Source: Prevotella sp.
GTDB lineage: Bacteria > Bacteroidota > Bacteroidia > Bacteroidales > Bacteroidaceae
Assembly: GCA_022783515.1 (NCBI GenBank)
Contig: JALEWR010000023.1
Span: forward strand, 1 to 42,480
Direction of reading: 5' to 3'
Length of the DNA stretch: 42,480 bases
The translations under genes were made by a program, and so were the position numbers. Under the pieces are notes generated by a model. The model was not told the DNA's origin. It ran no database searches and was given only the letters and a program-made list of their open reading frames with translations. Of this stretch, positions 15,025-24,833 are shown piece by piece. Each line of letters opens with the position of its first letter. Position 1 is the first letter of the stretch.

Positions 15025-15150
15025 ATCATCAATAATTTAATAAAGGGTTGTCTCTTTACAAATCGCAATTAATTTCGCAAAGTTATTAAACTTTTGAATG
15101 AAATTTTTATTTTTTGCTTAAAAAATACTATTTATGCGAATTTATTTTCA

Positions 15151-15158
15151 TACTTTTG
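15151..15158 (+). promoter_or_regulatory. Putative LRR-protein -7 box
   Basis: TACTTTTG, 16 nt upstream of the ATG at 15174. Confidence 0.5.
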
Positions 15159-15173
15159 CCAAATAAACTTTTA

Positions 15174-16505
15174 ATGTCAACGCGTATGAAAAAATTATTA
15201 CTCTTTCTGGCTTATGTATTATTGCCACTTAGTTTATTCGCACAAGGCACACCTGCCATTACTCTGGCCGTCGAAGTAGACGGGAATTCTCGCGACTTTT
15301 CATTTATAGTGAAAACTGAAGGTCAAAAACTTTCTATCGACTGGGGTGACGGTACGTTGGTAGAAACCGATGTTATTGCTTCCAATATTGCTGGAGGTTC
15401 TACAACCGTTACAGGTACACCTGTGGGCGAAGGCAATGTGAAGATTTATGGTGAGGGCATACTTTATTTCTCGTCTATCTCAAGAGTAGACGGTGCTGCC
15501 ATCACTGCGGCAAACGTAACCAATGCACCTGATTTGGTGAACTTGATGCTTACAACTAATAAGATTACAGAAATCGATTTGAGCAAAAACACTAAGCTCG
15601 AAACATTGAGCATGTCTAAGAACAAACTTTCTTCGCTTAATCTTACGGCTAATACAGCTCTTATGCGTTTGGAGGTAGAAGAAAACCAGATTGCTTCCAT
15701 CGATTTGTCTGCCAACACAGAGTTGAGTACTTTGAGAATGAGTAAAAACCCAATGAGTAGCATCGACCTCTCAGCTAACACAAAGTTAAAGATGGTGTAT
15801 CTCTTGAATTGCGGTTTGACCTCTGCCAACTTCGGAAACAATGCCACTACAGGACTTTTCCTGAGCTTGGGCGGTAACCTTTTCACCACTTTTGATGCCA
15901 CAACCATTCCCGGTTTGGCTACAGCAAGGGGCGAACTCTCACTTCGCGACAACCAGCTCACTAGCATCAAGGCTGATGGGGTGGCTCGTTTGAACGTGGC
16001 CATCAACAACCTGCCCCTCTCTGAACTTCCTGTTAAGGTAGGCGAACCTACTCGTTATAACTATCAGCCTCAACGCCCCATGACTATTGCCGGTAGCATT
16101 GAGGTGAACCAAGAACTCGACTTGTCGGCACAAAACAATTTGACCGATGCGGCGGGTGTGCAACATCCCACCACCTATACTTGGAAGACTGTCAGCGGAA
16201 CTCCACTCGTTGCAGGAACAGATTATACCGAGAATGCAGGTAAGTTTACCTTCCTCAAGCCACAAACCGAAGCAGTTTATGCAGTGCTTACTACTCCTGT
16301 ATTCCCTAAATTCACAGGTATGTACGAGTTTAGAACATCAGAAATCACTGTTACAGGTACCCCAACAGGTATTCAACAAGTGGAAGCTGCAGCATCAGCC
16401 GCCGTTCAACCAATCTACGATCTTAATGGTCGCTATGTAGGCAATAACCTTTCAGCTTTGCCTAAGGGTGTATATGTGGTTGACGGTAAAAAAGTTGTGA
16501 AATAA
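15174..16505 (+). CDS. Secreted leucine-rich-repeat protein with T9SS-like C-terminal tail
   Basis: About 21-aa repeats: ITEIDLSKNTKLETLSMSKNKLSSLNLTANTALMRLEVEENQIASIDLSANTELSTLRMSKN. Tail IYDLNGRYVGNNLSALPKGVYVVDGKKVVK. ATG at 15174 or 15186 is more likely than the ORF-track start at 15114. Confidence 0.88.
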   Translation: MSTRMKKLLLFLAYVLLPLSLFAQGTPAITLAVEVDGNSRDFSFIVKTEGQKLSIDWGDGTLVETDVIASNIAGGSTTVTGTPVGEGNVKIYGEGILYFSSISRVDGAAITAANVTNAPDLVNLMLTTNKITEIDLSKNTKLETLSMSKNKLSSLNLTANTALMRLEVEENQIASIDLSANTELSTLRMSKNPMSSIDLSANTKLKMVYLLNCGLTSANFGNNATTGLFLSLGGNLFTTFDATTIPGLATARGELSLRDNQLTSIKADGVARLNVAINNLPLSELPVKVGEPTRYNYQPQRPMTIAGSIEVNQELDLSAQNNLTDAAGVQHPTTYTWKTVSGTPLVAGTDYTENAGKFTFLKPQTEAVYAVLTTPVFPKFTGMYEFRTSEITVTGTPTGIQQVEAAASAAVQPIYDLNGRYVGNNLSALPKGVYVVDGKKVVK

Positions 16506-16583
16506 AGAATACTTGCAATCGTCTTAAACGATACTTACAGCTGTCTTTAAGACTATTTGCAATCATTCTGGAAAAAGAATTTG

Positions 16584-16617
16584 AAAGCCGGTTCAGCGTT
16601 TTGCCTGGGCCGGCTTT
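16584..16617 (+). terminator. Terminator of LRR gene
   Basis: AAAGCCGG (16584-16591) / CCGGCTTT (16610-16617) followed by a T run. Confidence 0.7.
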
Positions 16618-16915
16618 TTGTATTTTCCTCTCCAACGATTTTCAATACACGATAGAGTGGAATCTTAAAAAATGCCCAATAAAATCTCTGTTCTCTGCAC
16701 TCCGTGAATGGAATAGAAATACCCAAACTGTCTTTTGATGCACAAAAGCGTTCTTTTTTCGTGCCTCAAAAAGTGCGTTTAATCGCCATGGCATAGTTCA
16801 AACAAGTTTAACTCTGCTCATTTGGCTTCATTTAAACGTTGAATATTGATGCAATAGAACTACTACTTGCCACAAATTTACTGTGTTTTCGGGAAAATAT
16901 CGAATAATAAGGCAT

Positions 16916-17133
16916 AAAAAAGGGCTGCTACATTCCACATGCGGCAGCCTTTCAATGATTTTAAGAGAGTTGTAATAATTTTACGAGAGAGTTTCACTCT
17001 CGCTTATGCACTTTCTATTTACAATGTTACCGACATGCTCCCGCATCTCTGTTTCATTGCCTCGCCACATTCACTCTTACAATAAAAAAATAAGATGTGG
17101 ATGCTTTGAGAAAGACAATTACATTACATAATT
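16916..17133 (-). ncRNA. Candidate intergenic structured RNA (about 215 nt)
   Basis: Minus-strand promoter TTG-N19-TACTTTTG (17169..17140). No convincing ORF downstream. Ends in GGCTGC..GCAGCC + CTTTTTT terminator (16949..16916). Internal hairpins CCACAT..ATGTGG and CGAGAG..CTCTCG. Confidence 0.45.
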
Positions 17134-17139
17134 CTGTCA

Positions 17140-17169
17140 CAAAAGTACAATACTTTTTACACTCCACAA
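17140..17169 (-). promoter_or_regulatory. Promoter of candidate ncRNA
   Basis: Minus strand TTG (17169-17167), 19-nt spacer, TACTTTTG (17147-17140). Confidence 0.5.
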
Positions 17170-17403: not shown

Positions 17404-17730
17404 TCACCCCCTAATCATCGTCAAAATCATCTTGAATCGCTTGGCTGCGTGCAAGGCATGAGGAACATTGGCAGGCATGATAATCATCTCGCCGGCCTTC
17501 ACTTGGTGTGGCACACCACCCACTTTGATTTCCGCTTCACCATCAATCACCATTACTGTGGCATCGAATGGTGCCGAATGTTCGCTCAAACCTTGCCCTT
17601 CGTCGAAAGCAAAGAAGGTGATACTTCCTGCCTGACTGTGAGAAACTTCTTTACTTACAATACCGCCATCGGCATAATCAATCACTGCACCGGGAACAAG
17701 AACTGTTCCTTTTTCTATTTTCTGACTCAT
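17404..17730 (-). CDS. Cupin-domain protein
   Basis: 108 aa. SAPFDATVMVIDGEAEIKVGGVPHQVKAGEMIIMPANVPHALHAAKRFKMILTM. Confidence 0.9.
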   Translation of the reverse strand: MSQKIEKGTVLVPGAVIDYADGGIVSKEVSHSQAGSITFFAFDEGQGLSEHSAPFDATVMVIDGEAEIKVGGVPHQVKAGEMIIMPANVPHALHAAKRFKMILTMIRG

Positions 17731-24122: not shown

Positions 24123-24833
24123 ATGAAACCATCTGAATTTTTCGGGAAATTCTTGAGTATGGCACTCTGGGGCAATCTCATAACCATGTTTTTGGTGGTT
24201 GTAGGATTGGTCTTCGGCATAAAATATGGTATCGAGCTATATACTCACCACGGCGAAGAGATTGTCGTTCCGAATATAAAACATAAAATTTTCAATGATG
24301 CCGAACACATATTGGCCGATCTCGACCTGGAAATTGTCGTTGCAGATACGGGATATGTCAAGACATTACCTGCCGATTGTATTCTCGACCAATCGATAGA
24401 GCCGGGACATAAGGTAAAACCGGGGCGAGTGATATATGTAACCATTAACGCCTCGAGTACGCCAACCCTCACCCTACCCGATATCATCGACAACAGTTCG
24501 ATGCGCGAAGCCATCGCCAAACTTACCGCCTTAGGCTTTAAGGTGGGTCCTCCCAAGTTTATTCCCGGTGAGAAAGATTGGGTATATGGAGTGGTTGTCA
24601 ACGGCAAACAAATGCTCACAGGCTCTAAAGTACCCATCGATGCCACCGTTATCATTCTCGTGGGTAACGGGATGAGAGATGCAGGCGACTCGATTAACTA
24701 TGTGGAACCCGACTATCCCGAGATAGAAATGGCAGAAGGGGCAGAAGAAACCGACGAATTTGAAGAGGTAAAACCGGAAGAGCCTCAATCTCCTGCCGAT
24801 CCATTCACACCGGTGGAGCAGCCTACACAATAA
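24123..24833 (+). CDS. PASTA-domain membrane protein
   Basis: N-terminal TM, then PASTA-like repeats (VPNIKHKIFNDAEHILADLDLEIVV.. ; LPDIIDNSSMREAIAKLTALGFKVG..), acidic C-terminus. Confidence 0.88.
   Translation: MKPSEFFGKFLSMALWGNLITMFLVVVGLVFGIKYGIELYTHHGEEIVVPNIKHKIFNDAEHILADLDLEIVVADTGYVKTLPADCILDQSIEPGHKVKPGRVIYVTINASSTPTLTLPDIIDNSSMREAIAKLTALGFKVGPPKFIPGEKDWVYGVVVNGKQMLTGSKVPIDATVIILVGNGMRDAGDSINYVEPDYPEIEMAEGAEETDEFEEVKPEEPQSPADPFTPVEQPTQ

Follow-up and report, generated by a model that had tools for sequence, protein, structure and literature searches.

The described systems closest to the element reported here are the small RNAs GibS and FopS of Bacteroides, whose exposed seeds act on translation initiation regions, with the RNA-binding protein RbpB as a modulator (PMC7366714, PMC11697453); the FopS family has been deposited in Rfam (PMC11697453). 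Our locus lies in a window of 42,480 nucleotides, which makes up an entire contig of a fragmented assembly (87% complete) from the Prevotella group, and it had been put forward in a preliminary description as a stand-alone, minus-strand small RNA, either 6S-like or specific to the lineage. To our knowledge, the small RNAs of the Prevotella group, which is common in mouth and gut, have been little studied, and Bacteroidota do without the usual Shine-Dalgarno sequences that small RNAs block elsewhere. Comparative evidence strongly favors the lineage-specific, stand-alone RNA, whereas the 6S-like alternative is not supported, as the element yields no match to 6S models, has no conserved closing stem and is predicted to fold into serial hairpins.

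The element occupies a gap of roughly 900 bp between the gene of an LRR protein on the plus strand and that of a small cupin-domain protein on the minus strand (Table 1). All parts that had been named for it are indeed present there, including the internal arms CCACAT/ATGTGG, CTTAT/GTAAG and CGAGAG/CTCTCG. The closest named relatives of the cupin protein belong to Hoylesella (H. loescheii, H. shahii, H. saccharolytica) and P. conceptionensis. Within its own genome, the RNA element is present in a single copy. The gap also holds, at 16750-16840, an interspersed repeat of ~60-100 bp (TGCGTTTAATCGCCATGGCATAGTTCAAACAAG...) that recurs across the genus, in dozens of genomes; it has a second copy at 95% in the same genome, is repeated three times in tandem downstream of the P. 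conceptionensis cupin gene, and occurs in a P. nigrescens replicon without annotation.

Table 1. Features of the small RNA locus and its neighborhood, in window coordinates.
Feature	Coordinates	Strand	Remarks
LRR protein gene	15114..16505	+	convergent downstream neighbor; own terminator at 16583-16618
Terminator T-run	16916..16921	-	T-run at the same place in 5/5 homologs
Predicted small RNA, ~218 nt	16916..17133	-	start placed 6 nt after the -7 box
Intrinsic terminator hairpin GGCTGCCGCATGTGGAATGTAGCAGCC	16923..16949	-	kept in 5/5 species, with one compensatory pair
Unpaired AACTCTCTTAAA element	16960..16971	-	contains the 12-mer ACTCTCTTAAAT, 92% invariant
P4 hairpin CGAGAG...CTCTCG	16983..17003	-	4/6 pairs changed on both sides
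P3 hairpin	17021..17060	-	compensatory changes
P2 hairpin	17061..17110	-	5' domain of variable sequence, from folding each homolog; window and relatives not alignable
-7 box TACTTTTG	17140..17147	-	TAnnTTTG 210-217 nt upstream of the terminator word TGTAGCAG in 5/5 homologs
-33 box TTG	17167..17169	-	Bacteroidota sigma-ABfr type; TTTG/TTG at spacing 19-20 in 4/5 homologs
Small cupin-domain protein gene	17404..17730	-	upstream neighbor; position upstream of the RNA kept in G162
PASTA-domain gene	24123..24833	+	directly after the RNA in relatives; here 7 kb away through an apparent inversion

A plain BLAST search of the region against 100 relatives returned chance matches only. A similar element, recognized by its 3' end, lies downstream of the cupin gene in G162, a complete genome with the same cupin and Crp-type genes, and a strict search for the 3' pattern in relatives matched this genome alone. 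When a covariance model of the G162-type 3' end was run on 398 genomes of the genus, it returned three further strong members (G329, G214 and G409; E 1.7e-8 to 3.5e-7), which correspond to H. loescheii, H. shahii and P. conceptionensis. A second covariance model, built from these four relatives with the window left out, recovers the window at E=1.8e-7, and the window element is also its best match within the window's own genome (7.6e-6). Homologous elements are found in four other species, which places the family in 5 of about 398 genomes; beyond these members, neither model returned anything clearly above background in the genus sample, and within this sample the family is narrow. Weak model matches of 20-38 bits, read singly, proved to be other terminators, mainly after rpsT, folD or a 2-oxoacid oxidoreductase gene, and were left out of the homolog count. 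Collections of phages and plasmids contain no copy of the element, and no family in Rfam 15 matches the RNA; a match to Teg49 on the plus strand (27 of 186 bits, E 0.03) was taken as chance.

As expected of a stand-alone small RNA of Bacteroidota, the element has its own promoter of the type read by sigma-ABfr, the main sigma factor of this phylum, with the -7 box in all five homologs and the -33 box in four. The proposed arrangement TTG-N19-TACTTTTG is present on the minus strand of the window. Given a background of 3.6e-4 per base for TAnnTTTG in G162, the chance of this motif falling in the 8-nt slot is about 0.3% per genome. At the other end, the hairpin GGCTGC...GCAGCC with its CTTTTTT tract (16949-16916) constitutes an intrinsic terminator that is kept in all five species; a simple terminator scan of the window did not list it, probably because the hairpin has a mismatch at its apex and because of its loop. 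Across the five species, predicted RNA lengths range over 216-223 nt. In the window, where about 215 nt of mostly stop-interrupted, hairpin-rich sequence had been described, the predicted RNA is ~218 nt long, and a search for a conserved small open reading frame revealed none that is shared among the five homologs.

According to the predicted folds, each of the five RNAs runs from P2 through P3 and P4 to an unpaired stretch, with the terminator last. The preliminary description had proposed aligning the orthologous regions and testing for covariation; four relatives could be used for this, in which both promoter and stems are kept, and covariation is seen in P3, in P4 and in the stem of the terminator. 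With five homologs only, three of which are close to each other, the covariation amounts to few events: a model-free alignment of the four relatives contains 4 two-sided pair changes, compared to 1.5 in shuffles, and an alignment that includes the window contains 11, compared to 3.0 in shuffles and 1-4 in slid controls, the latter count leaning towards structure because the alignment was fitted to the model. In this second alignment, 95.7% of cells are paired, as against 29-57% in slid controls, and RNAalifold, making its own prediction on it, recovered P3, P4 and the terminator.

The most conserved stretch of the RNA, however, is unpaired. Situated between P4 and the terminator, the 12-mer ACUCUCUUAAAU shows 92% invariance, compared to 13-30% for the surrounding parts and 68% for the terminator. 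The five genomes contain few exact complements of it (TTTAAGAGAG), with no target common to them, and thus there is no support for base pairing with a conserved mRNA. We also considered ACTCTCT as a general feature of terminators, but it accompanies only one of 441 terminators in 1.2 Mb of G162.

The gene order around the element bears on two readings that would attach it to a neighboring gene. In G162, this order is crp(-) cupin(+) RNA(+) PASTA(+) rluD ddl, and in H. loescheii, H. shahii and P. conceptionensis the RNA likewise directly precedes the PASTA gene. In four relatives, the RNA is therefore located as one would expect of a cis-acting leader or attenuator of the cell-wall operon PASTA-rluD-ddl, directly upstream and on the same strand. 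In these relatives, however, a TACCTTTG promoter lies between the RNA terminator and PASTA, and in most of the remaining species of the genus PASTA is not preceded by such an RNA, this place being taken by L34 or other genes. In the window, moreover, the RNA is directed away from the PASTA gene, 7 kb apart; gene order, rather than breakpoint sequence, suggests that the segment from ~16.9 to 24.1 kb is inverted relative to G162, with a breakpoint just past the RNA terminator. Since promoter, hairpins and terminator are all intact after this apparent inversion, it represents a natural experiment, suggesting that the RNA is a gene independent of its usual neighbor, and we consider a leader or attenuator of PASTA improbable. 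The second reading, that the element is nothing more than the 3' UTR of the cupin gene upstream, together with its terminator, would agree with its position downstream of this gene, on the same strand, in the window and in G162. It is contradicted by Hoylesella, where the RNA occurs without an adjoining cupin gene, and by the separate promoter found with every copy, always at the same distance, and we accord it very little credence.

The possibility that the element is the 6S RNA of the lineage, which would mimic an open promoter and so bind RNA polymerase, draws on its length near 200 nt, on its own promoter, and on the detection of 6S RNA and product RNAs in B. thetaiotaomicron (PMC7366714). 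A closing pairing of the 5' and 3' ends, TGTAAT...ATTACA, had been proposed as well, and it is predicted in the window; across the five homologs, however, the duplex is no better than in shuffles (p 0.17-0.63), and a long closing stem is not conserved. The fold predictions, with hairpins in series and an exposed element, also differ from a single rod with a large central bubble. An Infernal/Rfam scan, which had been suggested for detecting 6S RNA, gave no match to RF00013 or RF01685 (6S-Flavo), but RF00013 was equally silent in Bacteroides control genomes and may be blind here, so that this result alone would be insufficient. A 6S RNA would further be expected nearly everywhere, not in 5 of about 398 genomes of the genus. 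It is structure and distribution that make a 6S RNA very unlikely. The remaining reading places the function on the plus strand, as a transcript, or in a structured DNA repeat. Indeed, the minus strand folds more stably than shuffled sequences (z-score -2.77), but the plus strand has a still lower z-score (-5.25), and the strand is accordingly not decidable from folding energy alone. The paired cells, however, comprise 18 G-U combinations in the minus-strand reading and a single A-C, which would be the wobble if the plus strand were the functional one; this ratio of 18:1 indicates selection on a minus-strand RNA. In each of the five species, T-run and promoter also belong to the minus strand, and a repeat is at odds with the single copy in the genome. 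We therefore attach hardly any weight to this last reading.

That a conserved small RNA gene exists at this locus appears to us highly probable. The gene, its strand, its boundaries, its structure and the conserved unpaired element are established by comparison of homologous sequences, while its transcription, its action in trans and the role of the element as a contact site are what we infer from them. On balance, we favor the full reading, in which a stand-alone small RNA gene is driven by sigma-ABfr and acts in trans via its exposed CUCUCUUAAA element. Minus-strand transcription by RNA polymerase bearing ABfr would begin near 17133 and end at the intrinsic terminator near 16916, yielding an RNA of ~218 nt that comprises P2, P3, P4, the unpaired AACUCUCUUAAA element and the terminator hairpin. 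The 5' hairpins could serve as a scaffold, while P4 and the terminator would clamp the exposed element, which would touch its partner directly; this partner may be mRNAs, contacted through base pairing, or an RNA-binding protein. For a single-copy, structured RNA with its own predicted transcript, no open reading frame and an exposed element that is its best-kept part, a trans-acting regulator is the simplest explanation, and by analogy it may work in a manner similar to GibS and FopS. Present in culturable type strains (H. loescheii and H. shahii), this structured family with its near-invariant unpaired element provides a handle on the action of trans-acting RNAs in this group.

A related motif is found at mRNA 3' ends. 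In at least 11 genomes, including that of the window, the 3' UTR after folD or the gene of a 2-oxoacid oxidoreductase gamma subunit contains AACUCUCUAA before a capped hairpin (loci L324 1479-1550, in the window's own genome at G000:C169 around 11130, L309-L315 and L318-L320). This module reads ACTTGATTTTTTTATAACTCTCTAATTTTT and continues into a hairpin whose stem varies and whose cap is GCAGTGATGC; 6 of its 9 stem pairs have two-sided changes, and it has no match in Rfam. It resembles the small RNA in carrying AACTCTCT(T)AA right before a terminator-like hairpin and in its short GCA...TGY cap, but it is located on mRNA ends, shows no promoter and has ACTTGATTTTTTTAT as its 5' part. This resemblance covers only a short stretch and could have arisen by convergence. 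One can nevertheless speculate that ACUCUCU(U)AA is a docking site common to the small RNA and to the folD and 2-oxoacid oxidoreductase mRNAs, with one partner linking them; we regard this as rather doubtful, although, if it were true, a single protein or RNA partner would tie the small RNA to mRNAs of central metabolism, for example by competition. Two further elements were observed. In several genomes, a conserved 3' end after an rpsT-like gene, where the end of the protein reads like ribosomal protein S20, has ACAAGATTGTTTCCATAATAATTTTTT and a terminator with GGTTGCAGCYCGTGAGGGGTAGCAACC (L162, L163, L166, L168, L169, L170, L177, L179 and L181, near 1500). A possible further small RNA family (L160, L180, L183 and L184, near 1500) consists of a hairpin, a conserved AGTTAAACAT and the terminator GCTGCAGCTCG...GCAGC, and L183 has TACCTTTG upstream.

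With 6S RNA (RF00013) and 6S-Flavo (RF01685), the window RNA shares its size class and predicted stand-alone transcription, but differs in its architecture, the lack of a conserved closing stem and its very narrow distribution. SrcF of Segatella copri (El Mouali 2024), to judge from its description in a review (PMC11814227), is a small RNA of a close relative within the old genus Prevotella. The best reading of our comparison is that the window RNA represents a new, narrow family of intergenic small RNAs, absent from Rfam 15. With its ~218 nt and its 5' hairpins, it does not fit the GibS and FopS type as defined by an R1 seed in a single-stranded 5' end, a terminator right behind it and a length of ~65-70 nt, and Rfam 15 gave no match that would assign it there. 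It does resemble GibS and FopS of B. thetaiotaomicron in its intergenic location, its Bacteroidota promoter, its conserved, single-stranded, seed-like stretch and its intrinsic terminator (PMC7366714, PMC11697453). While FopS, however, is a short RNA of ~65-70 nt, composed of a single-stranded 5' seed and a terminator and present in 14 copies per genome, the window RNA is predicted to be a single-copy molecule of ~218 nt, with three additional hairpins and its conserved unpaired element beside the terminator.
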